Origin: Termitidicoccus mucosus | GTDB taxonomy: Bacteria; Verrucomicrobiota; Verrucomicrobiia; Opitutales; Opitutaceae | NCBI RefSeq assembly: GCF_038725785.1 | Contig: NZ_CP109796.1 | Location: 1,302,001-1,366,000 of the forward strand | Length of the DNA: 64,000 nt | Direction: 5' to 3' | Shown: positions 51,101 to 64,000 of the stretch, one piece after another | Numbering within the stretch: the stretch's first letter is position 1 | Layout of the letters: every line of letters starts with the position of its first letter | Position numbers and translations under genes: made by a program | The notes under the pieces: model-generated | Databases searched by the model: none | Seen by the model: the letters and a program-made list of their open reading frames with translations, nothing else | What the model was told of the DNA's origin: nothing

Positions 51101-52632
51101 GCAAGGCGGCTATCACGGTCGAGCTGGACAAAATGTCCGACGACGACCCGCCGCAGCCGGTGCATCTCACGCTCGTCATCGAGTCCACCAAGTCGTATTT
51201 GCTCACGCCGACCCTCGGACAAATCGCGCCCGCGCACATGACCGCCGGCGGCGACCTCGAGTTCAACGCCTCGCTCTCCAGCGCGTCCATCACCGGCGCG
51301 ATGTTCGGCTGGGAATACTTCGATGGCGCGGAATGGAAGAGTGTCGCCACGCTCGGCCCGGCCGGCTACGCCACGGCAAACAACGGCGCAGTGCTCACGC
51401 TGAAAAAAATTGCGCAAACCCTGAACAACGCGCGGCTCCGCTACACCGCGACCATCGGCAACAACCCGCCGCTGTACAGCAACGAGGTGCTGCTCACGAT
51501 TGACCCGCCGCACTCGCTCGGCGCATCCGCGCTGGCCGTTGACCACAAGGGCGTCATTTATGCCGCCAACCGCGTCAGAAACACCGTCGAATATATAGAC
51601 CTCGACGGTGCCATGCACATTCTCGCCGGCGATCCGCTCGACCCGTCCGGCTGGGTTGACGCCGTCGGCCGCGCCGCCCGCTTCAACGCCCCGCGCGGCC
51701 TCGCGCTGGGCAGCGGCACCCTCTTCGTGGCCGACACCGGCAACAACGTCATCCGCGCCGTGGACCTTGCCAGCGGCGCGGTCGCCACCCTCGCCGGCGC
51801 CCCCGTTGCCGTCACCGGCACCGACGCCTCCGCCCTTTTCGCCGACGGCCCCGCCGCCTCCGCGCGCTTCAACAAACCCGCCGGCCTCGCGCTCGACTCC
51901 GCCGGGCTGCTCTACATCGCCGACTCCGGCAACCACGCCATCCGCGTGCTCGCCGGCGGCACGGTCACGACCATCGCCGGAGAGTTGGGCGTGTCCGGCA
52001 CCGACGCCGCGCATTTCAACACGCCGCGCGGCCTCGCGCTCAGCGAGGACGAAAGCACGCTCTTCGTGGCCGACTCCGTCAACTCGGCCATTCGCGCCGT
52101 CACCCCCGCGCCCGCGCCCGGCGGGGGCTTTGTCGTGACCACTGTCGCCGGCAACCCTCCTCGCAGCGGCTACGCTGACGGCGCGGGCGGAGCCGCGCTC
52201 TTTCGCCTTCCCTCCGGCGTGACTGTCGCCGACGGCGCGCTCTACGTGGCCGACACGGAAAACTCGCTCATCCGCGTCATCGTCGGCGGCACCGTCGCGA
52301 CCCTCTCCGGCACCGCGGGCGCGCCCGGCTTCCGCGACGGCGTTTTGGCCGGCGCGCAATTCAACAAACCGGAAGCCGTCGCCGCGGATGCGCGCCGCGA
52401 CCTGCTGTTTATCGCCGACACGGGCAACCTGGCGATCCGGGTTCTCGACATCGAGACGGGCGAGACCGTGACACCGGCGATGGCACGCGCCATCGAGCCC
52501 TATGACGTGCCGGAATCGCTCGACAAAGGCAGCGGCAATTTCAGCGGCGGCGGCGCGCCCGGCGCGTCTTTTCTCCTGCTTTTGCTGATGGCGGGCTGCG
52601 TCCGTTTTCTCCTTTCTCGAAAAGAACAATGA
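48169..52632 (+). CDS. Surface multidomain protein: Ig-like, beta-helix (pectate-lyase-like), IPT/TIG, NHL repeats, C-terminal sorting tail
   Basis: A 1487-residue exported protein from ATG 48169 (signal peptide about 1-28, ending SLHA). Domains in order: N-terminal beta-sandwich (30-285); Ig-like (290-375, HYQWFKDGTPITGAPDS); right-handed beta-helix with a pectate-lyase-3-like start (381-895, IQAAIDEVGAMTPDENGYRG); IPT/TIG-like (905-1005, TITGIAPGMFLPGESL); about five NHL repeats forming a propeller (1115-1445, GLALGSGTLFVADTGNNVIR). The C-terminus SGGGAPGAS plus a hydrophobic helix and SRKEQ is a GG-CTERM-like sorting tail, implying surface attachment. It may be a lyase or glycan-binding protein; no catalytic residues can be named. 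Its TGA overlaps the next ATG (ATGA). Confidence 0.85.
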   Translation: MKSYSCLRNYALAGLLGVLFLGFPSLHATVIMDDDLSSSLPGTTNSNARKTLDVPRSAEWYGSTASSSLTETTGAFAMSTTGNGHFIIGNFTNEGVFATVPVGDTLTISFKFSLTPASGASVLPSADGVVRIGIFNSAGGRAAADQIGVSNAIFRGYNGYLMLINPNASTKNANVRRRDVGNDTDRQALLNSLNAYTKLITNAANNGQTEPLTPDEIYTGIFKLTRQAESSLLFEFSIKDAGGVEKCYHTYTDTSANSVTAFDTFAIGKTNGTIGAVTVHGLKVETDSARPVIVGPLGDRSVTVGDSVILSVTAASESQTHYQWFKDGTPITGAPDSAVLRLPGAQEADGGVYSVTVSNASGQTDSAAGTLTVSPAPAQTWTSDWATPDSAGRFSYQSDAEGNRIPDFSHAGYMGGGVEPPLVGSGSGQVPVKKNVSASAGDNLAQIQAAIDEVGAMTPDENGYRGAVLLAKGLYEVSDTIRIPYSGVVLAGEGGASEDATANTVIRRTGTGTAPVVKIGGQKGVSADPYFTDQYVAEIPDTRSNITSDVVYVGETSFQVENPSLYHEGDAIIIRHPSTQAWIDAVDQGGATGAEAGFLPWQAGNFDLRYHRYITNVDEATKTLTVDAPVFNTLKKSLSQSHVFRYDATGITTRSAVDNLFIDIVTEGPSTENHAMNAVELVETENCWVRDTTARHFVCAGIYVGGNSTRATVLRCRAIEPHSAINGSRRYNFYASGAQLVLFQECYARNGRHSFITDGAGATTSGIVFLNSVADYSLHTVEGHRHWAQALLYDNVEIRHPAYTGLPKTIALHNRKNQGTVQSHGWSAANSVIWRSNSGGAPDAVPTWAIIAEKPPTAQNYAIGCFGNTTDNSTGGIIEGTNQTGLNPTSLYKAQLEERTTPPPTTTTITGIAPGMFLPGESLTIQGKDFPGPDTATTLGAITKVSVGGVEVPSTDWRRDSDTIIVITRVPAGIPETGKAAITVELDKMSDDDPPQPVHLTLVIESTKSYLLTPTLGQIAPAHMTAGGDLEFNASLSSASITGAMFGWEYFDGAEWKSVATLGPAGYATANNGAVLTLKKIAQTLNNARLRYTATIGNNPPLYSNEVLLTIDPPHSLGASALAVDHKGVIYAANRVRNTVEYIDLDGAMHILAGDPLDPSGWVDAVGRAARFNAPRGLALGSGTLFVADTGNNVIRAVDLASGAVATLAGAPVAVTGTDASALFADGPAASARFNKPAGLALDSAGLLYIADSGNHAIRVLAGGTVTTIAGELGVSGTDAAHFNTPRGLALSEDESTLFVADSVNSAIRAVTPAPAPGGGFVVTTVAGNPPRSGYADGAGGAALFRLPSGVTVADGALYVADTENSLIRVIVGGTVATLSGTAGAPGFRDGVLAGAQFNKPEAVAADARRDLLFIADTGNLAIRVLDIETGETVTPAMARAIEPYDVPESLDKGSGNFSGGGAPGASFLLLLLMAGCVRFLLSRKEQ

Positions 52633-54701
52633 AAAACGCCGGCGCACTATTCCTGTTCACAATAATATTCCTGCTCGCACCCGGCGGGACGCGGGGCGAT
52701 GAGGCCGCCTCCAGCCGCGCGCAATTGTTCAAGGGCGAATTTTCCGTCCGCCCCGAAATGCGCGGAGTGCACCCGCGCCTTTTTGCGGACGGGCAGGACC
52801 TCGCGCGCGCCACCGCGTTTTATAAAGCCAACCCGGCGTTGTTAAAGAAATACGGTCCCAACCCGGGCGACCTCATCCAGCCGCCGAAAGACCCGCCCGC
52901 CAAGGTGGACGGCGCGGTGTTCCTCTCGCTGGCCCGCGTCGCCTGTGCGTGGCGCGTCGGCGGCGCCGGTGAGCATATGAATTTGCTGATGTCATGGCGT
53001 GAAACGCTGGAAAAATGCGCACCCGTGGCTTTCACGGGCAAGCTTGGCAAAACCAACGAGGATCTCCGCGCCGGGCACGCGCTGACGGGACAGGCGGTGA
53101 TGTATGATGTGCTGAAAGGCTCCGTGCCGCACGAACTGGAAAGCGCCTTGCGCAAGGCGCTCGCCAAGCAGGCCGCGCAAACCTACCACGATCTGGCTAC
53201 GTCGGAAACCTATCCCTACGCGCAAAATCATTTTTCCATTCCCGTCGGCGGACTGCTGGCGGCGGCGTGCGTCCTGGCGGATGAAAACCCGGATGCCGTC
53301 CGCTGGGGGGTGTTTGCGAGAAACGCATTGCGCCGCGCCCTCGACGCGCAGCCCGATGACGGCTGGTTTTTCGAGGGCGCGAGCTACTGGAACTTCACCT
53401 CGCAGTTCACCGTCAGCGCCGCCTTCGCGCTCGACCGCGCCACCGGGGAAAACTGGTTCGACCGGCCGCCGTTGCACGACGCCGGTTTGTATCTGGCGCA
53501 CATCCACACGCCGGGAGCACGCCATGTGTTTGACTTTGCCGATTGCGGCCCGCGCGGAGACGCGAACAGCAAGACCGGACAAAAAGGCTATGACGCGCCG
53601 TGGCATTCGCTCCCCGCCGACACCAATTTTGCCTCGCCGCTCCTGCTTGCGCTCCGGCAGGACAACGTGTTTCTGCGCGCCTGGCTGCGCGAGGCCGCGC
53701 CAACGCTCGGCTTGTGGCGGATCGACGCGATACTCCGCCTGCTGCTCGCGCCGGAATTTCCCGAAAAACCAGTGCCTCTGGCTGTGCGCAACGGGCCGCC
53801 GCCGTGGCACCATTTCCCGGACATCGGCGTCGTCCACTGGCGCCAGCGCTGGGGCGATCCCGACGCGGTGGCGCTGGCGTTCAAGTCCGGCCCGCCCGCC
53901 GGCCACCGCTATGCCGTTACCCAGCCGACACGCCCGGAATGGCGCTCCTCGCTCGGCCACGCGCATCCCGATGCGGGCTCATTTATATTATTTGCCAAAG
54001 GCGTTTTTCTTGCAAACGACACTGGCTACACGGGCATCAAGGAAACCGCCGACCATAATTCCATTTTGGTTGACGGCACCGGCCAGCACAAAGGCGGCAC
54101 CACATGGGCTACATTCACCGGGAAACCGCAGGGCGAATATGGAAAGATCCGCATGGAAAATGTCCGCCTCGACCCGGATTTCGCGGCGGCGACGGCGGTG
54201 TTCGACGCCGCTTATGACGACGCGCTGCAACTAAAGAAAATGCGCCGCGACCTGCTGCTGGTAAAAGGGCGTTTTCTTGTGATTCTTGACCGGATGCAAT
54301 CGGAGAAAAAGCACTCCTATCAATGGCGTTTGCACACGGACACACAAACGGCGTCCTTGGGCAACGGGCGATTTGTCATGGAAAATGGACCGGCAAGACT
54401 CGTCCTGCAAAATTTGAACACGGGGCTGACGGCCAAAACCGCACCGACGATTGTGGAAGTATCGCTTACGCCCAAAAAAACACCCCAACGATTTCAAAGA
54501 GGATTCCATCTTGAACTCGCTTCCTCCCCGGATGAAAAGATGGAATTTCTCAATGCATTTTGCATCCAGTCGACGGATGAAAACCCCGGCGCGTTCCAGG
54601 CAGTTCGCATTGATGACAAGACGCTGGAGCTTCGCGACGGCGGCAATATTTGCAGAGTCACAATCGGGGATGACGGACAGCTAAGCCACTCACTGCAATA
54701 A
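52629..54701 (+). CDS. Secreted heparinase II/III-like polysaccharide lyase
   Basis: A 690-residue protein with signal peptide (about 1-24, LLAPGGTRG). An alpha/alpha-toroid (about 45-370; MRGVHPRLFADGQDLAR; YPYAQNHFSIPVGG; GWFFEGASYWNF) is followed by a beta-sandwich (about 400-690) with GHAHPDAGSFILFAKGVFL and ETADHNSILVDGTGQHKGG, the Hepar_II_III hallmark. Such enzymes cleave uronate-containing polysaccharides (heparin, alginate, ulvan, rhamnogalacturonan types). YAQNHFS, HPDAGS and ADHNS are candidate active-site or metal segments. It is translationally coupled to the surface protein (4-bp ATGA overlap) and 10 bp before the next glycosidase. Substrate not predictable; uronic-acid glycan inferred. 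Confidence 0.88.
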   Translation: MKNAGALFLFTIIFLLAPGGTRGDEAASSRAQLFKGEFSVRPEMRGVHPRLFADGQDLARATAFYKANPALLKKYGPNPGDLIQPPKDPPAKVDGAVFLSLARVACAWRVGGAGEHMNLLMSWRETLEKCAPVAFTGKLGKTNEDLRAGHALTGQAVMYDVLKGSVPHELESALRKALAKQAAQTYHDLATSETYPYAQNHFSIPVGGLLAAACVLADENPDAVRWGVFARNALRRALDAQPDDGWFFEGASYWNFTSQFTVSAAFALDRATGENWFDRPPLHDAGLYLAHIHTPGARHVFDFADCGPRGDANSKTGQKGYDAPWHSLPADTNFASPLLLALRQDNVFLRAWLREAAPTLGLWRIDAILRLLLAPEFPEKPVPLAVRNGPPPWHHFPDIGVVHWRQRWGDPDAVALAFKSGPPAGHRYAVTQPTRPEWRSSLGHAHPDAGSFILFAKGVFLANDTGYTGIKETADHNSILVDGTGQHKGGTTWATFTGKPQGEYGKIRMENVRLDPDFAAATAVFDAAYDDALQLKKMRRDLLLVKGRFLVILDRMQSEKKHSYQWRLHTDTQTASLGNGRFVMENGPARLVLQNLNTGLTAKTAPTIVEVSLTPKKTPQRFQRGFHLELASSPDEKMEFLNAFCIQSTDENPGAFQAVRIDDKTLELRDGGNICRVTIGDDGQLSHSLQ

Positions 54702-54711
54702 ACGGAGTGCC

Positions 54712-57486
54712 ATGTTCACCCCCAAGGATCACGACCTCTCTCTTTCCGACTGGGGGCCGTATTCAAAATGCTACGCGGGAGCCTCGCATATCGCGGACAA
54801 AAAGCGGGGGCTGCGTTTCGACCTGAGCGTGTTCCCCGCCCTTTATCGCCGGCGCGTGGATGTGCCGAATGTGACGTGGGAATCCGACTGGCATCCCTGG
54901 GAGTGCGCCCCGGATTTTACTTATTTCAGCACCCGGCATGAACTGGTCTGGAAAGACCAAGTTTACATGGATGCCGCCTGGTTCAGGCCCGCCCCGGAGG
55001 ACCAGCCGGACGGGGATGGATTATTTGTGCGATGCGAATTTGTGAATAACACCGCGAGGCCGGTTTCCGCGGCATTGCATTCGATGGCGTCAATGAATTT
55101 CCCGACGCTTTCCAATTATTCCGACGAATCCTTGCATCGCATCCATGTCGAGTGGGAAAATTCCAAGGAAGCAAAGACCGGCGGTGCCGTGGTAAAGCAT
55201 CCTTTGGATTATGAATCGCTGGACTTTGCAAGGCAAACTCCGGCGAACCATCTGATGCCGGACGGTTTCTACCGCGGCGAAGTGAGAGGGAACGGATTCA
55301 TGGATGGCAGCGGTTTGGGTGGTTTTGCCCGCAATGCCGGGGCCTCGGCCTGTTACGTGTTCACTCTGAATGCTGCGATGCGGGATGCGCGATTTATCAT
55401 ACGCCTCCGGGGAAGCGGATGTTTTTGTCTCAAAAAAAACGGGATAAATAATCATGAGAAAAAAATCGGAGTGCTGAAATCCGGACATGGCAGGTTTGAA
55501 AACATCGAATGCTGGTTGGGATTACTTCAGGCCGGAAGACATGTGTTCACGTTGGAATCGCTGGGCGGCGAAGGGGATGAGGAAATCGCATTTCTCGCGC
55601 TTGCGCCCGCCGCGGCTGGGGATGTCAGAGTGCGGGAAGCAGGCTGGAGTCACCAGCCGTCATGCGTGCCGTATGATGACGCCAAGGCGGGGCAGATATT
55701 AAAATATCCCGATGTGAGCCAACACTATGGAATCGCATGGGATGCAAAACAGTTTGAGACACGCCGGATACTCAACAAGGAGCTGGATTGTTTTCTTCGC
55801 CATAACGTGCATGACCATGTCCACGAAACACTCCAAGGGGACACTGCCGGTCATTTCAGTAATATATTCATCCGCCCCCTAGTGCTTGCGCCGAGGAGTA
55901 GAATCGTCCTCCGGGGTCTGGCATGGAAAGGCGCACCCGCTCAAATCAAAAGAACATTTGCCACCTTTTTCGAAGGCGCTCCGGAGAAGCGAGCCGAGCG
56001 ATTTGAGTTCGCCCATGCGAGGGCGAGGCGGTCTGTGTTCTCATTCAGGCCGAATCCCGGCGGGAAGCATTTTGCATTCAGCCAGGATCGCATGGCTGCA
56101 ACCACGTTAAGCAACGCGGTTTTCCCGGTTTATACGCAGCGCCAATATGTGCGCCACCGCCCGCCGGGCCGCTGGTGGAACAGTCTCTATACCTGGGATT
56201 CCGGATTCATAGGACTGGGCCTGCTTGAAATCGATCCGAGGCAGGCGGAAGAAAACCTCGCCCAATATCTCACCAGCCCCGGCAATCCGCACGCGGCCTT
56301 CATCCAGCATGGAAGCATGGTCCCGATGCAGATACATCTCGCCCATGAACTGTGGAACCGCCTCGGGGCGGAAAGCCCGGAGGGGGAAAAATCCATAAGA
56401 ATGCATTACGACTCATTACGGCGTTATTATCGCTTTTTGAGCGGAGACGGGGATGGATCGACGTTGCGTTCGTTGAAATCCGGCCTTTTGCGCCCTTGGG
56501 ATTATTTTTATAATTCCGGGGGATGGGATGATTACCCGCCCCAGAGATACGTGCATGAAAAAAAGCAGGAGGCATCCGTCTCCCCCGTCATCACCACGGC
56601 GCTAGCCATCCGCTGCGCGCGGACGCTCGGTTTCGCCGCGGGGGCACTGGGGCTTAAGGATGATGTTTCAGGCTATGAAAATGACATAAGATTTTTCTCC
56701 AGCGCCTTGGAGGAACATAGTTGGGACGAGTCCGCCGGCGTTTACTCCTATGTGCTTCACGACAGGAACGGCCGCCCTCTGCGCGCCCTTTATCACGAAC
56801 CGGATGGGGCAAACTTCAACATGGGGCTGGACGGACTGTTCCCGCTGGTGGCTGGGATATGCAATGCCCGAAAGCAGAGGCGACTGGTGGCGCAATTATT
56901 TTCGCCCTCCCGTTTCTGGACGCCCGTCGGTCTTTCGGCCGTGGACCGCTCGGCCCCCTATTATAGAAACGACGGTTACTGGAACGGCAGCGTCTGGTTT
57001 CCGCACCAGTGGTTTTTCTGGAAAACAATGCTGGATCTGGGCCGCCCGGCACGCGCGTTTGCCATCGCCGGGCGCGCGTTGAAAACATGGGACACGGAAG
57101 TGCGGGAGTCCTATCATTGTTTCGAGCATTTCCTGATAGAAACAGGCCGCGGATGCGGCTGGCATCAATTTTCAGGGTTATCCACTCCGGTCATGATTTT
57201 TTATGCCGCCTGCCATTGTCCGGGGCGTCTGACGACGGGGTTCGACGCCTGGGTGGCAAGTGTCGGTTTCAACAAGAAAAACACGCGCATGAATGCGTCC
57301 ATCAAATTTCGTCCATGCCCGATTTCAGGCAGGCGGTCGCTCCTCGTTTGCATGAAGTCCGGGCACAATTATCATGCGGAATGGAATGGGAAAAAAATAG
57401 CATTCGACGAGCTTATTCCCGGACTCCTTGCGATCTCCCTGCCGACGTCGGAGTGCGAGGGCACGCTGACAATCGACAGCGGCTAG
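54712..57486 (+). CDS. GH63/GH37-like (alpha/alpha)6-barrel glycosidase, cytoplasmic
   Basis: A 924-residue protein without a signal peptide, so it should work on imported oligosaccharides. The N-terminal half (1-450) is a beta-rich domain (DWGPYSKCYAGASHIAD; NVTWESDWHPWECAPDF). The C-terminal toroid (about 480-830) has RWWNSLYTWDSGFIGLGL, HGSMVPMQIHLAHELWNRLG and YYRNDGYWNGSVWFPHQWFFW, as in GH63, trehalase-like and mannosylglycerate-hydrolase-like (MGH1) enzymes; the Asp in WDSGF is the usual catalytic acid. A C-terminal beta-sandwich covers about 840-924. Possible roles are alpha-glucosidase, alpha-mannosidase or rhamnosidase-like. It is last of the three-gene operon; a perfect hairpin lies 41 bp after its stop. 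Confidence 0.8.
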   Translation: MFTPKDHDLSLSDWGPYSKCYAGASHIADKKRGLRFDLSVFPALYRRRVDVPNVTWESDWHPWECAPDFTYFSTRHELVWKDQVYMDAAWFRPAPEDQPDGDGLFVRCEFVNNTARPVSAALHSMASMNFPTLSNYSDESLHRIHVEWENSKEAKTGGAVVKHPLDYESLDFARQTPANHLMPDGFYRGEVRGNGFMDGSGLGGFARNAGASACYVFTLNAAMRDARFIIRLRGSGCFCLKKNGINNHEKKIGVLKSGHGRFENIECWLGLLQAGRHVFTLESLGGEGDEEIAFLALAPAAAGDVRVREAGWSHQPSCVPYDDAKAGQILKYPDVSQHYGIAWDAKQFETRRILNKELDCFLRHNVHDHVHETLQGDTAGHFSNIFIRPLVLAPRSRIVLRGLAWKGAPAQIKRTFATFFEGAPEKRAERFEFAHARARRSVFSFRPNPGGKHFAFSQDRMAATTLSNAVFPVYTQRQYVRHRPPGRWWNSLYTWDSGFIGLGLLEIDPRQAEENLAQYLTSPGNPHAAFIQHGSMVPMQIHLAHELWNRLGAESPEGEKSIRMHYDSLRRYYRFLSGDGDGSTLRSLKSGLLRPWDYFYNSGGWDDYPPQRYVHEKKQEASVSPVITTALAIRCARTLGFAAGALGLKDDVSGYENDIRFFSSALEEHSWDESAGVYSYVLHDRNGRPLRALYHEPDGANFNMGLDGLFPLVAGICNARKQRRLVAQLFSPSRFWTPVGLSAVDRSAPYYRNDGYWNGSVWFPHQWFFWKTMLDLGRPARAFAIAGRALKTWDTEVRESYHCFEHFLIETGRGCGWHQFSGLSTPVMIFYAACHCPGRLTTGFDAWVASVGFNKKNTRMNASIKFRPCPISGRRSLLVCMKSGHNYHAEWNGKKIAFDELIPGLLAISLPTSECEGTLTIDSG

Positions 57487-57874: not shown

Positions 57875-60166
57875 TCACAGTTTCCGTTTGGACAGGATGC
57901 GGTCCACCACAAGCTGGCGGAATTGAGGCGAGAGCATGGAAAAATACGACGTGAACCCGGTCACCCGCACCACGAGGTCCGGAAATTTTGAGGGATCCTT
58001 GTGCGCCTCAAGCACGCGCGCCTCGTCAACTAGGTTGATATTCAGCAGCGTGCAGCCTTGGTCGAACATCGTCTTGATGAGCGCGATGATCTTTTCAATC
58101 GCCTCCGGGCTCTCGCCGATGATCGGATCGAGCTCCAGCTGCACCGGCGCGGTGTTGCCGTAGCCCGGCTGCACGGCGGCAATCGCGTTGACCAGCGCGG
58201 TGACTGCGCCGTCCTTGCGGAACCCGGGCAGCGGATTCGCGCCATGATTGACGGGCTGGCCGGCGCGGCGTCCATTCGGCGTGGCCCCGACCGCCTTGCC
58301 GAATTCGATCGTGTTGGCCCAGGAAAAGAGTCCGGGGATGAAATTATACTCGGGGTAACGCCGGTTCTGGTCGCGCACGATGCCGCTCCACGCCCTGGAG
58401 ATACGCACGGCCCAGCGTTCGGCACGGTTGTCCGTGGCCTGGCCGAAGCGCTCGCTGCCTTGCAACAGGAGCCGCACGCTTTCGCCCTCGATATCGGGGA
58501 AATTTTTTTCGAGCTGCCAGCGCACCTCGTCCCAAGTGAGGCGGTCCTCGTCCACCACGCGCTGTTCGAGCGCGGCAAACGAATCGGCCACGACGGCGAT
58601 GCCCGCGCCGTCAATCGCGAGGTTGCAATACCTCGCGCCCCCCGCGGTCATGTCCAGGCCCGTTTCGACCGGACCGTGGCACAGGAGATTTGTCACCAGT
58701 TCCGGCTCGTTGTGCGCCTGATGGCACATGTGAAAATGATTCCCGTCGGCGGTTTTTTCGACGGCCACGCGCAGGTGACGCAGATAACTCTCCCACAACC
58801 GCTCCAAATCCGGCTCGGCGGTGCTGGCGAACATCTCCAGCCAGGCGATTTCAAAGACCTTGGCGAGGTTCACCTTCACCACGTCGTTGAGCGTGTATTC
58901 GAGGCCGGGGAGCGACATCCAGTTGCAACCGACGGCGATGCGTTGGCGCGCAAGCTCCTCTGAATAACCGGCGCGCATGAACCCGGCCACCAGCGCCTTG
59001 TCGCCGCTGAAGCGCGGCCAGCCTTTTTTGTAGTGGAACAACAACCGCACGCCGCGTCGGAGCAGTTCGGGGTCGAGGCCGTCGTGGACACGGATTGTGA
59101 GGTTGCATGGCCCGTCCATCAATTCGGCGGCGTCCAGAATGAGATGCGACACGCGGCTCGTCATGTCGCGTCCGTCCGGTCCCGGACCGCCGAGCTGGTA
59201 ATACTGCGCATCGATCAGCAGCAGGCAGGCGATGGTGAAAGCGCCCTCTTTGTCGTCGATCAACCCGGCTGTGGCATCGCGCTCGTAGTAGGGGCGGAGC
59301 AGTTCGTCGAGCTGGCCGCCCGCGCCGCAGCGATTGTAGGTGCGCTTGGCCAGCACGAACCACGCGAGCCACTGGCAGGCCTCGCGCAGCGTGCGTGGCG
59401 CTCCGCCCGCCGCGATCCACTCGTTCACGGCTTTCATCACGCGCAGGTTTTCCCGGAGTTGCGGATGGGGCTCGGTGAGAAGTCGGCGGTCAATTTCCGC
59501 GACGGTGCGGCGAATCCAGCCCTGAATCGCCAGCACGGTGCGTTCCTCGCACTCATAGAAAAGCGCCTTGTCGCGTCCGTGCAGCGCGCGATGGCGGCGG
59601 AGTTTTTCCAGAATGCCGCCCCAGCCAAGCCGCAATCCCATCGCGAGGTCGCAGGCGTAGTGCGCATCCGCGCCAATGCCGTGCGTGATGTTGTATTTCT
59701 CGTGAAAAGATTTGAGATGCGAGTAGTCGAAATCGGGATTCCATACGTAGCCGACGGCGCCGGGAGTTTTGCGGGATTTCGGATTGGCAACACCGCCAGC
59801 GACGTCGGCGGCGGACGCGGGGGTTTTCATTTTCGAGAGATAAAAATAGGTCTGCCCTGCCAGCGCGTCGTGGGGATTCACATACACCGGCTGAGCCGAG
59901 AGCAGGCTTTCGAAATTCCGCGTCCAGCCGGTGAAGCCGTAGAAGGAGCCGTCGGCATGGTTGGGAGTGACTTGCCAGTGAAAATTCTCCGGGGCCACAT
60001 GGCGTCCGTAATCGCCCTCGTCCATGCCTCCTTCTCGGTCGATTTTCTCCTGGGTGACGGCGAGCTTTTTTTCCATGAGCCGTCGCATGCGGTCGGCAAA
60101 GGAAAGCGTCGCGATATTTCCGGCGATGGTCGCGGTGGCATCGGTCGAGGCAGTTTGGTTTTTCAT
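57875..60166 (-). CDS. Glycyl radical enzyme, pyruvate formate-lyase-like, unusual active-site loop
   Basis: A 763-residue glycyl radical enzyme. The C-terminal radical site RVTGFTSYF is at 734-742 with Gly737, and the thiyl Cys414 lies in QRIAVGCNWMSLPGLEYT. In dehydratases and lyases of this family the loop is G-C-V-E, and in pyruvate formate-lyase C-C; here it is G-C-N-W, so the general-base Glu is missing and the reaction cannot be any of the standard dehydrations. GGQLDELLRPYYERD (283-297) and NGRRAGQPVNHGANP (631-645) are further family motifs. The enzyme is oxygen-sensitive and anaerobic. It lies 48 bp downstream of its radical SAM activase. The substrate is unknown; a sugar-acid derived from the adjoining glycan genes is a guess. 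Confidence 0.88.
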   Translation of the reverse strand: MKNQTASTDATATIAGNIATLSFADRMRRLMEKKLAVTQEKIDREGGMDEGDYGRHVAPENFHWQVTPNHADGSFYGFTGWTRNFESLLSAQPVYVNPHDALAGQTYFYLSKMKTPASAADVAGGVANPKSRKTPGAVGYVWNPDFDYSHLKSFHEKYNITHGIGADAHYACDLAMGLRLGWGGILEKLRRHRALHGRDKALFYECEERTVLAIQGWIRRTVAEIDRRLLTEPHPQLRENLRVMKAVNEWIAAGGAPRTLREACQWLAWFVLAKRTYNRCGAGGQLDELLRPYYERDATAGLIDDKEGAFTIACLLLIDAQYYQLGGPGPDGRDMTSRVSHLILDAAELMDGPCNLTIRVHDGLDPELLRRGVRLLFHYKKGWPRFSGDKALVAGFMRAGYSEELARQRIAVGCNWMSLPGLEYTLNDVVKVNLAKVFEIAWLEMFASTAEPDLERLWESYLRHLRVAVEKTADGNHFHMCHQAHNEPELVTNLLCHGPVETGLDMTAGGARYCNLAIDGAGIAVVADSFAALEQRVVDEDRLTWDEVRWQLEKNFPDIEGESVRLLLQGSERFGQATDNRAERWAVRISRAWSGIVRDQNRRYPEYNFIPGLFSWANTIEFGKAVGATPNGRRAGQPVNHGANPLPGFRKDGAVTALVNAIAAVQPGYGNTAPVQLELDPIIGESPEAIEKIIALIKTMFDQGCTLLNINLVDEARVLEAHKDPSKFPDLVVRVTGFTSYFSMLSPQFRQLVVDRILSKRKL

Positions 60167-60214: not shown

Positions 60215-61159
60215 TCAGGCGACGCGGACCTGGATGCCGTGTTTCGCGGCGGCGTCGCGGAACCGCAGCATGGAGGCCCCGGGAACCAGCGGCGCATCCT
60301 TGAGCGGATAAGGTTTGCCCATGCAGCGGTATTTGTCCGCACCGAGCGGATTGTAGGCGAGCAGTTCGTAGTAGTCCAACGCGGGCAGCGTGGCGGCAAA
60401 TGCCGCGACAGCCCCGATCGCAGCGACCGTGTCGTTGAAGCCGGGGATAACCGGCGTGCGAACGATAAGCGGACGGCCAAGCGCGCCGAGACGGCGGGCG
60501 TTTTCCAGTATCCGTTTATTGGATATTCCTGTCCATTCACGGTGCGCGGCGGAGTCCATGTGCTTGATGTCGAACATCACCAGGTCCAGCAACGGCAGGA
60601 GCGGTTCGAGTTTTTCCCACGCCACGGACAGGTTGGTTTCGATGGCCGTGTGAATGCCGCGCGTTTTCAGCAACGCGAGGATTTCGCGCGCGAAGCCGGG
60701 CTGCGTCGTCACCTCGCCGCCTGAGAGTGTCACACCGCCACCGGAATTTTTGTAGAAACTCATGTCCTGCATCGCCTCGTCGATGATCTCCTGCGGCGAA
60801 ACCTCGCGCCCTACCCTCACCAGAGCCTCCGCGTAACAATCGCCCCGGTAATGCCGCACCATGCCGGTGTCGTCGGTGAAACTCATGACGGCGCCAGACC
60901 CGGAGTCCGCATCAGAATTTGGGCTGCAATGTCCGCAGCCGATGCACTTGGAGCGGAAAAACTGGAGTTCGGGGCGCGGATTGATCGTCTCCGGGTTGTG
61001 GCACCACGAACAGCGCATGTTGCAGCCCTTGAAAAAGACCGTCGTGCGGATGCCCGGCCCGTCATGCAGCGAGAAGCGCTGGATGTCGGTAATGATTCCC
61101 GTGGCGACGGGCGCGGAGGCGGGCGTGGCGATTGCTCCCATATCCCGATCCTGCGGCAT
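60215..61159 (-). CDS. Glycyl radical enzyme activase (radical SAM, PflA-like)
   Basis: A 314-residue radical SAM protein that installs the glycyl radical on the enzyme at 57875-60166. The cluster motif C-x3-C-x2-C is Cys46, Cys50, Cys53 in KGCNMRCSWCHNPET, and GGGVTLSGGEVTTQPGFA (about 138-155) is the SAM-binding GGE region. An inserted segment has C-x2-C-x2-C at Cys72, 75, 78 (KCIGCGHC) and one Cys at 108 (RGDCYAE); the second ferredoxin-like four-Cys half seen in most GRE activases is largely lost. It may therefore bind fewer auxiliary clusters than related activases. It is upstream of the radical enzyme in one operon and divergent from the AraC regulator at 61219, its likely controller. 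Confidence 0.92.
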   Translation of the reverse strand: MPQDRDMGAIATPASAPVATGIITDIQRFSLHDGPGIRTTVFFKGCNMRCSWCHNPETINPRPELQFFRSKCIGCGHCSPNSDADSGSGAVMSFTDDTGMVRHYRGDCYAEALVRVGREVSPQEIIDEAMQDMSFYKNSGGGVTLSGGEVTTQPGFAREILALLKTRGIHTAIETNLSVAWEKLEPLLPLLDLVMFDIKHMDSAAHREWTGISNKRILENARRLGALGRPLIVRTPVIPGFNDTVAAIGAVAAFAATLPALDYYELLAYNPLGADKYRCMGKPYPLKDAPLVPGASMLRFRDAAAKHGIQVRVA

Positions 61160-61218
61160 AGCGCGGGCGAAGAAACGCTCCTTGAACGCGCAGCAAAAAT
61201 TGATTGAATGATGATGCT

Positions 61219-62064
61219 ATGCCTGATCATGCCCCCAAACGGCTCTATCTCCCCGCGCGCGACCGCTCGTTCTGGAAGTGCGATGACGGCGGCGGCGCGT
61301 TTCCCCTTCTCTATCTGGCTTGGGGGCATCGCGATTTCCACCTCCAAGGCGTCCCTGCCAGCACGCACGAGGGCTGGGTCTGCGTCTGCATCGAGGAAGG
61401 CGCGCCGGCCATCATCCTGAATGATCGCGCTATCCGCCTATCTCCCGGCCAGCTTGTTTTCATCCGCGAAAACTGCCCGTATGGCTGGGAACGCTCCGGG
61501 AGCAAAAGCTGCAAATTTTTTCTCTGGATGTGGCGGTCGCTGCTGCATCCTGAACTGGCCGCCATGCCGAATGACGCCAGCGCCCTGCAAAAGATCCCCG
61601 CCACCCGGCGTCCGTTGTGGAGTCGGCTGCATGCGATGTGCCGCGAAGAAATCCTGCGCCAGGACGAATGGAGCCGTGGCTGGCTTGAGAGTTGCCAGTT
61701 CCAGATTGAGGTTCTGCTGCTGCGGCTGATGAAACCCGTTCCCGAAGAAAAGCCCGCCGCCCGCCGGGTCGCCCTCGCCCTGGCATGGATGCGCCTGCAC
61801 CCGGACAGCCAGGAGCCCGTCGGACGCCTCTGCGACTATCTGGGCATCTCGCAACCCACGCTGCACCGGCTCTTCAAAAATCAAACCGGCGAAAGTCCGC
61901 TCGCTCATTTTCATCGTATCAAGATGAACCGCGCCCGCCAGCTCCTTGGCAATCCGGGCGTCTCGGTCAAGGAAGCCGCCTTCATGCTCGGCTACCGGCA
62001 TTTCAATGATTTCAGCCGGGCCTACCGCCGGCACTTCGGCAGCGCCCCGTCCCGGAAGCAATAA
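61219..62064 (+). CDS. AraC-family transcriptional regulator
   Basis: A 281-residue regulator from ATG 61219; a TTG at 61204 could add five residues. The N-terminal cupin-like sensor (about 1-165; DRAIRLSPGQLVFIRENCPYGWERS) is followed by two helix-turn-helix motifs (about 178-278): VGRLCDYLGISQPTLHRLFK and VSVKEAAFMLGYRHFNDFSRA, ending in the YRRHFGSAPS signature. It is divergent from the activase-radical enzyme operon with only 59 bp between, so it probably activates that operon in response to a sugar ligand. It is convergent with the second AraC gene, 19 bp away. Confidence 0.92.
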   Translation: MPDHAPKRLYLPARDRSFWKCDDGGGAFPLLYLAWGHRDFHLQGVPASTHEGWVCVCIEEGAPAIILNDRAIRLSPGQLVFIRENCPYGWERSGSKSCKFFLWMWRSLLHPELAAMPNDASALQKIPATRRPLWSRLHAMCREEILRQDEWSRGWLESCQFQIEVLLLRLMKPVPEEKPAARRVALALAWMRLHPDSQEPVGRLCDYLGISQPTLHRLFKNQTGESPLAHFHRIKMNRARQLLGNPGVSVKEAAFMLGYRHFNDFSRAYRRHFGSAPSRKQ

Positions 62065-62083: not shown

Positions 62084-62914
62084 CTAATCCATCCTCCACA
62101 TCTGACGCCTGAACTCGCGCGGTGTCATCCCGACCATTCGCTTGAAACAACGGCTGAAATAATACTCGTCACAAAAACCCAGCGTCTCCGCCACCATGCG
62201 GTTTGAAGCCGAGGGATGGGCCAGCATGTCGCAACAGCGGTTGATGCGTAGCCGTGTCAGATGCTTGACGGGAGGCACGCCGAAGACGCGGGAAAAGCGT
62301 TTGCGGAACGCCTCGTAGCCCATGCCCAGCCGGGCGGCCAGCGCGTCCCAGTCGGGCGGCTGCCGCAGTTGTTTCTCCAACAGGCGGTCCACCTCCCCGG
62401 CCCATCGGCGGTCGCCCTCCTGCCGTGGCTGGCTCGACTCCCGAAAGGCGAGCACTTCGGACAACAGTTGCTGCAAGCGGCAGATTTCCTCGCAGCAGGA
62501 TTTGGCGTCCCACGGCATGCGTTTGCCGGGCACGGCTTCGATTTTTCGTGCCCAGGCGGCGGCATCGTCAAGCGACAGCAAAGGCGGACGCTCGGGCAGC
62601 CAGCCCGCCCTTTGCCAGGCACGGGGAATCTCCCCGGAAAACACCAGGAAAATCTCGTCCCAGCAACCGCCCGCGTCGGGACCATAGCTGTGCCAGACGC
62701 CCGGATATAAAAAGAACAAGTCGCCCGCCGAAACCGGCTCGCGCGGCGTGCGGGCATCCTCGAACCATCCCCGGCCCGAGGTGACAAACACCATGCCAAA
62801 ATAATCAAGTTCGCGGCGGCTTTGGGTTTCAGTTTTATGCAATGCCCCGGAAATAACCACATGCCCCGGTTGCGACCAAGGGGAAGAAAGAGGGAAAGAG
62901 TGACGGGCTTTCAT
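62084..62914 (-). CDS. AraC-family transcriptional regulator
   Basis: A 276-residue regulator from ATG 62914, preferred over a TTG at 62941. The cupin sensor domain (about 20-130; VSAGDLFFLYPGVWHSYGPD) precedes two helix-turn-helix motifs (about 175-275): WDALAARLGMGYEAFRKRFS and MVAETLGFCDEYYFSRCFKR, with the MTPREFRRQMW ending typical of the family. It faces the oxidoreductase gene at 62997 across an 82-bp divergent interval, so that gene is its most likely target. Ligand unknown. The two AraC genes are not close copies of each other. Confidence 0.92.
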   Translation of the reverse strand: MKARHSFPLSSPWSQPGHVVISGALHKTETQSRRELDYFGMVFVTSGRGWFEDARTPREPVSAGDLFFLYPGVWHSYGPDAGGCWDEIFLVFSGEIPRAWQRAGWLPERPPLLSLDDAAAWARKIEAVPGKRMPWDAKSCCEEICRLQQLLSEVLAFRESSQPRQEGDRRWAGEVDRLLEKQLRQPPDWDALAARLGMGYEAFRKRFSRVFGVPPVKHLTRLRINRCCDMLAHPSASNRMVAETLGFCDEYYFSRCFKRMVGMTPREFRRQMWRMD

Positions 62915-62996
62915 AAACGGATGCCATGCCAAAAAACACAAATTTTGCCAATCACTCTATTCAAAAAAGAAGGGATTGTTTGCTTTAATCACAACG

Positions 62997-64000
62997 ATGA
63001 ATCCAACCCTCCACTCCGATTCCTCCAAGGCATTGCGCATGGCGTTTTTTGCCGTCGGCGGCATGGCGCTTAATCACCTGAAAGCCATCGCGCAGCGCGG
63101 TGACGTGCGTGTTGTCGCGATGTGCGACCTGAGCGAGGATGCGTTGGCCGCCGCGCGCGCCGTTCTCGCCGAGCATTACGCCCCTTCCGAGATCGCTTCC
63201 ATCCGCACGACAACAAATGCGATGGCGATGGCCGGCGACGTTGACTGCGACTGCGCCTTTCTCTCCATCCCCAACCCGGCGCGCATTCCCGTCGCAAAGC
63301 GGCTGGTTGCCCGAAGCATTCCCTTGCTCATGGAAAAGCCCGCGGCGCATTCGCTCGAAGATTTTGAGGCGCTGCTGGCCGGACAACGCAAGACCGGCGC
63401 CGTCGTCATGGTGTCGCAGAATTATCGCTACACGCCGGGCGCATTGCTGGTTCGCCGCCTGCTGCGGCAGGGAGAGGTTGGGAAGGTCGAGACCGTTGCC
63501 GGCTTGTTTCTTCGGAATCATCTCAAGGCGAGCCGATTCTACTACGGGAAACTGCCGGGACCGGTGCCATTTCGCATCGAGATGGTCATCCATCACATGG
63601 ATATGGTGGCCGCATGGCTTGGCGCCTCTCCCGAGCGTGTTGCCGCCGACGGATTCCGCACGCCGATCTCTTGGGGCGTGGGGGATACCGGTTGCGATGT
63701 TCTGGCCCGCTTTAGCAACGGAGCGCGGCTGAATTATCATGGCGACTGGAGCGCCGCGTCCTCCGTGACGGGATGGAACGGCCAATGGACCGTCACCGGG
63801 TCGATGGGCGTTCTCACATGGCAGGGCGAAAACCGGGTTTGCCTGAGACGCAGGCACGCCGATCCCTTCTGTGACGATGGCGAATGGGTCGAATTCCAGG
63901 CCGCCCGAAGCGAGGATTCACTGACAGCGATTCACACGGAATTTTTCACCGCGTTGCACGAAGGCCGGATGCCCGAATCGAGTCTGGAGGAAAACGCCGC
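62997..64000 (+). CDS. Gfo/Idh/MocA-family oxidoreductase, 3' end outside window
   Basis: The frame starts at ATG 62997 and is open at the window edge, giving 334 visible residues. The Rossmann start RMAFFAVGGMALNHLKAIA (14-32) binds NAD(P); the usual GxGxxG is relaxed to AVGGMA. EKPAAHS (about 114-120) is the conserved EKP motif containing the catalytic Lys, and QNYRYTPGA and EMVIHHMDM supply the second-domain HxxD-like motif. No signal peptide is seen. Members oxidise or epimerise sugars and cyclitols, or perform redox-dependent glycoside cleavage. It is divergent from the AraC regulator at 62084-62914 and is probably controlled by it. Confidence 0.88.
   Translation, partial: MNPTLHSDSSKALRMAFFAVGGMALNHLKAIAQRGDVRVVAMCDLSEDALAAARAVLAEHYAPSEIASIRTTTNAMAMAGDVDCDCAFLSIPNPARIPVAKRLVARSIPLLMEKPAAHSLEDFEALLAGQRKTGAVVMVSQNYRYTPGALLVRRLLRQGEVGKVETVAGLFLRNHLKASRFYYGKLPGPVPFRIEMVIHHMDMVAAWLGASPERVAADGFRTPISWGVGDTGCDVLARFSNGARLNYHGDWSAASSVTGWNGQWTVTGSMGVLTWQGENRVCLRRRHADPFCDDGEWVEFQAARSEDSLTAIHTEFFTALHEGRMPESSLEENA

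Follow-up and report, generated by a model that had tools for sequence, protein, structure and literature searches.

Among the oxygen-sensitive glycyl radical enzymes (GREs), the eliminases carry the CXE motif as a conserved hallmark, according to two papers (PMC7077986; PMC8473560) that state it for HypD, CutC and IslA, with IseG likewise in a third (PMC6453916). The aminoacyl radical enzymes, as PMC11528403 describes them, hold Ala, Ser or Thr in place of Gly. Recent GRE assignments have opened up the anaerobic breakdown of sulfonate, hydroxyproline and 1,5-anhydrohexitol, and PflD works on a sugar-type substrate, as a 1,5-anhydromannitol-6-phosphate lyase.

The GRE gene of the window (the whole stretch of 64,000 nucleotides from Termitidicoccus mucosus that was analysed) occupies positions 57875-60166 of the minus strand as an intact open reading frame of 763 amino acids with an ATG start, belongs to what is called here the GC[N/H/Q]W family, and matches the Pfam PFL-like domain at 252.2 bits and Gly_radical at 42.5 bits, both above cut-off. 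The radical motif RVxG[FWY] and a mid-protein Cys are both present, the former as RVTGF, with the codon of the glycyl radical site Gly737 at 57956-57958 (minus strand), and the latter as Cys414, which sits within RIAVGCNWMSLPG. The codons of Cys414 (58925-58927) and Trp416 (58919-58921), with Asn415 between them, together take up 58919-58927 on the same strand. Judging from sequence, Cys414 is the predicted thiyl-radical Cys, and Trp416 occupies the position of the CXE Glu. A sequence-only reading of this DNA had taken Gly737 and Cys414 to be intact, had seen the Glu after the Cys replaced by Asn-Trp (GCNW), and had noticed the lack of the double Cys of pyruvate formate-lyase (PFL); the first point is borne out by translation, alignment and the above-cut-off Gly_radical match, the second by the 763-residue frame, and the third by Asn415 as the neighbour of Cys414, the PFL-type pair being absent because no second Cys follows. 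Two candidate identities were rejected: that of a PFL, with the pair missing and the equivalog score far below its cut-off, and that of an aminoacyl radical enzyme, since all 91 sequences aligned at the radical position have Gly there.

Two homologues, nearly full length, have open frames (L008, 91% identity; L019, 85%), and the same genome holds both a paralogue (L002; 728 residues, 54% identity), with its own activase and the loop GCNWMSLPG, and a separate PFL (L001), which carries the Cys pair. At L019, in Geminisphaera colitermitum, a second, different GRE with a GCGE loop and RVGGF (L019:14672-16966) adjoins the GCNW enzyme, and an activase-cluster gene adjoins it in turn.

Trp was found at Cys+2 in all 105 family loci (GCNW in 90, GCHW in 14, GCQW in one), and with C-x-W in every one of them CXE is absent from the family. 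Conservation of the loop in orthologues had been proposed as a check, and it is the Trp that is kept, the Asn varying among N, H and Q; the loop is more than chance or a local oddity, and its Trp is a family-wide invariant. The motif counts that come from a scan of contigs for relatives (80 kept of 165) are biased, because AVGCNWM was one of its two search patterns. The motif played no part in a profile search that covered 387 genomes of the phylum with a profile derived from four GCNW sequences and matched 21 of them, the own genome included; Trp is present in every one of the 21 loci that it found in other genomes, with N in 11, H in nine and Q in one at Cys+1. When 92 family members were aligned with seven reference GREs, C414 and W416 were kept in 92 of 92 and G737 in 91 of 91, and His169, Arg409, Glu423, Asp428 and Asp519 each in 92 of 92; the column of W416 holds Glu in six of the references and Val in one. 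This alignment and the tree discussed below cover 92 of the 105 loci, L096 and L106 having been dropped for length and a further eleven standing outside both (L010, L011, L015, L023, L029, L048, L053, L056, L075, L085 and L116).

The relatives span ten bacterial phyla, and according to record titles they come from isolates and from metagenome bins of rumen, caecum and faeces. No description of a GRE with a GC[N/H/Q]W loop was recognised in the literature searched, subscription journals being mostly outside its scope, and the family is widespread and apparently uncharacterised. Its deep-branching members L120-L123 carry GCQW or GCHW, and in some of them the conserved NRxGAGGQ segment reads as an NGSG type; this deep branch possibly has a different substrate.

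The activase gene lies 48 bp upstream of the GRE on the same strand (60215-61159, minus strand) and encodes a radical-SAM GRE activase of 314 residues (TIGR02494 at 311.9 bits, cut-off 174.35), in which a CX3CX2C motif is seen by eye. It is the cognate partner of the GRE, and since the two are adjacent on one strand they look like an operon; the GRE entry of the sequence-only reading had mentioned neither this activase nor the paralogue. The ferredoxin-like insert of the activase looks reduced, by eye, to a single CX2CX2C group plus one isolated Cys; the activase of the paralogue (L006:11317-12372) has two fuller cysteine groups. Divergent from the pair stands an AraC-type regulator (61204-62064, plus strand; PF12833), whose cluster occurs in seven loci, the window's included, then a second AraC-type regulator with an AraC_binding domain (62084-62941, minus strand) and a GFO/IDH/MocA oxidoreductase (62976-64000, plus strand), which continues beyond the window end and has 357 residues in L007. 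The AraC regulators and the sugar oxidoreductase that had been read beside the GRE are thus recovered by domain matches. On the other side, a heparinase II/III-like gene (52629-54701) and a GH63/MGH1-like gene (54712-57486) run toward the GRE operon. URO-D/MtaA-like genes recur near sugar loci, at L007:7742-8839 with weak MtaA-type matches and at L140:10029-11108 by eye, and URO-D was present in two of 77 scanned neighbours.

No mannosidase, sialidase, cupin or any other mannose or sialic-acid marker was recognised in the window's flanks, and neither the small nor the double cupin of the relatives was found in the window genome, in a search that had no positive control there; the paralogue of that genome adjoins sialidase-like genes. 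The glycan-utilisation setting that had been claimed for the gene is weak at the window locus, and it is in the relatives that it becomes strong, through GH92, GH47, GH38 and genes of the sialic-acid type.

The neighbourhoods were recounted over the 105 loci, or 100 after the removal of five near-duplicates, many of them with short flanks. Within 5 kb of the GRE, these 100 loci include a cupin of ~139 residues in 28, a MocA-type gene in 27, a RhaT-type transporter in 11, GH92 in nine, GH47 in eight, a double cupin of ~252 residues in seven and AGE in six, followed by sialidase-like and lyase-like genes (five each), ManA-like, YhcH, SGNH esterase and sugar porter genes (three each), and GH38 and GH130 (two each); an activase-cluster gene is present in 81 of the clustered loci. 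Most Bacteroidota loci have the cupin directly after the GRE and then a RhaT-type transporter, a sugar porter or a mannosidase, an arrangement that takes the form of an activase-GRE-cupin-sugar porter-GH47 cassette in L023 and of the same cassette with GH92 in L029, the TIGR00879 sugar porter match being above cut-off in both. Three genomes carry, next to the GRE-cupin pair, one frame that fuses a RhaT-type transporter to GH92 (L030:12546-17483, with an additional pectinase-like part after GH92 seen by eye; L042:12547-17502; and L074:2357-4324, which ends at a contig edge), a fusion that links the sugar being imported to the action of an alpha-mannosidase. Of 23 Bacteroidota loci, eight have GH92 within 5 kb. 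With the GH92 count of each genome taken as its background, 0.68 such loci would be expected, and 200,000 random draws never gave as many as eight; the loci of this set are not independent, six of the eight belonging to one clade.

Among 77 scanned neighbour enzymes, hand-picked from 196 candidates and biased to recognisable enzymes, the commonest GH families were GH92 (5-6), GH47, GH38 and GH2 (three each) and GH130 (two), and PF06379 (RhaT-type) was found in nine. GH38 is clear in L024, from Bacillota, and in L118, from the window's own phylum; its matches in L018 and L054 are weaker, and L054 also has a GH2 with mannosidase Ig domains. In L106, L112 and L114 the GRE and the double cupin are followed downstream by a ManA-like gene, that of L112 scoring below the equivalog cut-off (71.4 against 116.2 bits).

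The small cupin is rare: among 198 genomes from the phylum to which G409 belongs, two have it, and one, G409 itself, has the GRE. Without a GRE, the cupin is again found among mannose genes, in L139 near GH92, a GH76-like gene, a sugar porter, an SDR, a lactonase and the mannonate dehydratase UxuA, and in L140 beside GH92 and GH38. The L139 cluster (G553:C1:1122001-1138000) also has an RraA-like aldolase and looks like an oxidative mannose pathway. The predicted fold of the small cupin gives no function, because its sole high-Z match, 3d0j (Z 23.3, the next match 11.2), is uncharacterised; the double cupin was named by eye and has no Pfam match.

Sialic-acid genes form the second recurrent context. 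In L037 the GRE is surrounded by a frame with NanM-type mutarotase and sodium-symporter parts, an SGNH esterase and an N-acetylneuraminate-lyase-like gene; L051 and L079 have the lyase-like gene with one of the YhcH family, L075 has YhcH and SGNH genes, and sialidase-like BNR genes occur in L006, L014, L034, L046 and L050. Four of the lyase-like proteins have N-acetylneuraminate lyase as their best match, below equivalog cut-offs, and a fifth, in L046, is weakly like it; the YhcH proteins of L051 and L075 are related to the N-acetylneuraminate anomerase model, again below cut-off. L056 is of another kind, with a KDPG aldolase, a sugar kinase, an MBL hydrolase, an SDR and an IlvD-like dehydratase near the GRE, and this locus and the MocA-type loci (27 of 100) would also be compatible with other sugars or with sugar acids. 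Taken together, the relatives' contexts indicate mannose and sialic acid instead of sugar acids or polyols at large, the classes that the sequence-only reading had proposed for activity screening.

N-acetylmannosamine is the product of N-acetylneuraminate lyase. As mannose and N-acetylmannosamine share the manno configuration, a free substrate of that configuration is proposed, and as the relatives adjoin mannose and sialic-acid genes, a reaction on a free sugar is probable. The explanation that we would put first, tentatively and with less than even confidence, is that an intact GRE and its activase act by radical chemistry on a free sugar of manno configuration, likely in an elimination with a relocated base. 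The activase would make the radical at Gly737, which would pass to Cys414 as a thiyl, and this would abstract a ring-carbon hydrogen from the sugar, which would be free and unphosphorylated, and most likely mannose, or N-acetylmannosamine in the sialic-acid branches. A substituent on the neighbouring carbon would then leave, the axial C2 group of mannopyranose being well aligned for this, and a 2-deoxy product would result. The handling of the proton, with no CXE Glu, could fall to His169, Asp428 and either Glu423 or Asp519, and Trp416 could pack against the sugar ring. The activity of the enzyme, its substrate class, the elimination chemistry and all these residue roles are inferred, and the residues of the Cys414 pocket were assigned by sequence alignment alone. 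Against this explanation stand the missing CXE hallmark and the flanks of the window, which have no mannose or sialic-acid marker. If it were true, it would reveal how GRE catalysis can proceed when the CXE base is missing, and it would mean that anaerobes process mannose and sialic-acid sugars via radical chemistry, along an anaerobic mannose/N-acetylmannosamine pathway that is missing from current metabolic maps. For the family at large, in at least ten phyla, it is somewhat doubtful that free hexoses of the mannose type undergo a radical reaction without the CXE Glu, by a proton-transfer arrangement unlike that of the characterised eliminases.

The ordinary enzymes of these sugars are for the most part present. 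ManA was found in 16 of 17 genomes tested, one of them (G553) without a GRE, and an AGE-family gene somewhere in 11 of 13, two of which are AGE-context loci (L024 and L057); a test for ManA with PF01238 gave no match in 11 genomes, nor in the Bacteroides control. With ManA so widely present, the GRE is no replacement for the ordinary route of mannose, and as a simple substitute for existing enzymes, AGE included, it is unsupported. The same presence weighs against a radical epimerase or isomerase, in which Cys414 would remove a hydrogen from mannose or N-acetylmannosamine and a residue would return it, with inversion or migration; such a reaction has no leaving group, so the CXE base would be needless and Trp could fill its place, and no AGE-type gene is labelled next to the GRE in L037, L050 (a contig of 4.4 kb), L051 or L079. 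GRE epimerases are not known, and we regard this alternative as quite improbable.

Within the tree, neighbourhood types differ by clade, the types being cupin with RhaT, SSS with AGE, MocA x2, and lyase-like with YhcH genes, and the window's own clade (the window, L008, L019 and L009) is almost without an informative neighbour. This could mean that each clade has a free-sugar substrate of its own, that of the window's being neither mannose nor sialic acid, which we consider unlikely: genes linked to mannose turn up again in clades far apart (L024, L118, L054, L035 and Bacteroidota). The loci of the sialic type likewise fall in several separate clades, L075 standing outside the tree.

The tree, which was built from 92 family members and six reference GREs by a quick method whose program warns of long branches, puts the whole family in a single starred clade, flanked by long stems on either side. 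Placement among the GREs had been suggested as a check on the gene, and the GC[N/H/Q]W family comes out apart from the six references. As the clade is separate and each NCBIfam GRE equivalog that the window GRE matches, those of indoleacetate decarboxylase and 4-hydroxyphenylacetate decarboxylase included, is matched far below its cut-off, no known reaction can be transferred to it by homology. To this extent the claim of a reaction class beyond the standard members is supported; the newness of the class is not, and neither is the loss of Glu as a singular trait, since CXE is also lost in Peptoclostridium (GCVV), in Novosphingobium (GCLG) and in PFL with its Cys pair. The Peptoclostridium loop belongs to a GRE without the CXE Glu at L128:388-2757, and that of Novosphingobium sp. 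PP1Y to a GRE-like frame on a plasmid (L134), in which RVxG[FYW] was not matched.

An AlphaFold2 model of the window GRE (mean pLDDT 90.5) matches PflD best, with Z 36.8 and an rmsd of 2.7 over 690 residues, followed by glycerol dehydratase (36.3), PflD with 1,5-anhydromannitol-6-phosphate (8id0, 36.3) and propanediol dehydratase (36.1); PFL (28.4) and class III RNR (about 20) are lower, and BSS and MasD also fall below the sugar/polyol eliminases. The predicted fold is thus of the eliminase type and closest to the sugar/polyol eliminases, and in the alignment the retained His and Asp of the window GRE still look eliminase-like. The lower scores of PFL, BSS and MasD argue against C-C bond chemistry, or any other beyond elimination and epimerisation, for which it could be said that PFL is likewise without the CXE Glu, as are the X-succinate synthases; it seems decidedly improbable.

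PflD is the top match by phmmer (E 3.7e-46) as well as by fold, and its complex 8id0 is the top Foldseek row; PflD and YbiW share with the window GRE the Gly and Cys loops and an aligned His, and PflD also an Asp aligned with D428. The identity to E. coli PflD over the fold alignment is 23%, the loops of PflD and YbiW read GCVE and GCIE against GCNW in the family and RVAGY against RVTGF in the window GRE, and the latter scores 177.4 bits with PRK09983 against a cut-off of 1109 and falls in a separate clade. This likeness, together with the MocA-type genes in more than a quarter of the loci, would suit a ring-opening C-O lyase of the PflD/YbiW kind, acting on a non-phosphorylated anhydro-hexitol or on a sugar derivative that a MocA-type enzyme produces. 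It is, in our estimate, an improbable one: the aligned PflD and YbiW keep their Glu, they use a phosphate made by the PTS according to the literature, no PTS gene was noticed among the labelled neighbours, and the sialic-acid context would be left unexplained.

The B12-independent glycerol and propanediol dehydratases are similar in fold, and His169 and Asp428 presumably align with their diol-binding residues, Asp428 with the Asp of glycerol dehydratase; they differ in that the window GRE is without the CXE Glu, and no microcompartment or diol genes were noticed among the labelled neighbours of the family. With HypD, CutC, IslA and HpsG it shares superfamily, fold and related activases, but its scores with the models of HypD, CutC and HpsG are 143, 115 and 144 bits against cut-offs of 1100, 1050 and 1000; HypD has a His at a column where the family also has one, which we take to pair His169 with HypD His160, and a Glu where the family has Trp. 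PFL has in common with it the Gly radical domain and the thiyl Cys, and is set apart by the Cys pair, by an equivalog score of 68 against 994.2 bits and by the lower fold score. The value of the family lies in the invariant replacement of the very residue by which eliminases are defined and in the testable list of substrates that its relatives offer, and by all these comparisons the GRE of the window is an uncharacterised variant within the GRE superfamily, and not a categorically new system.
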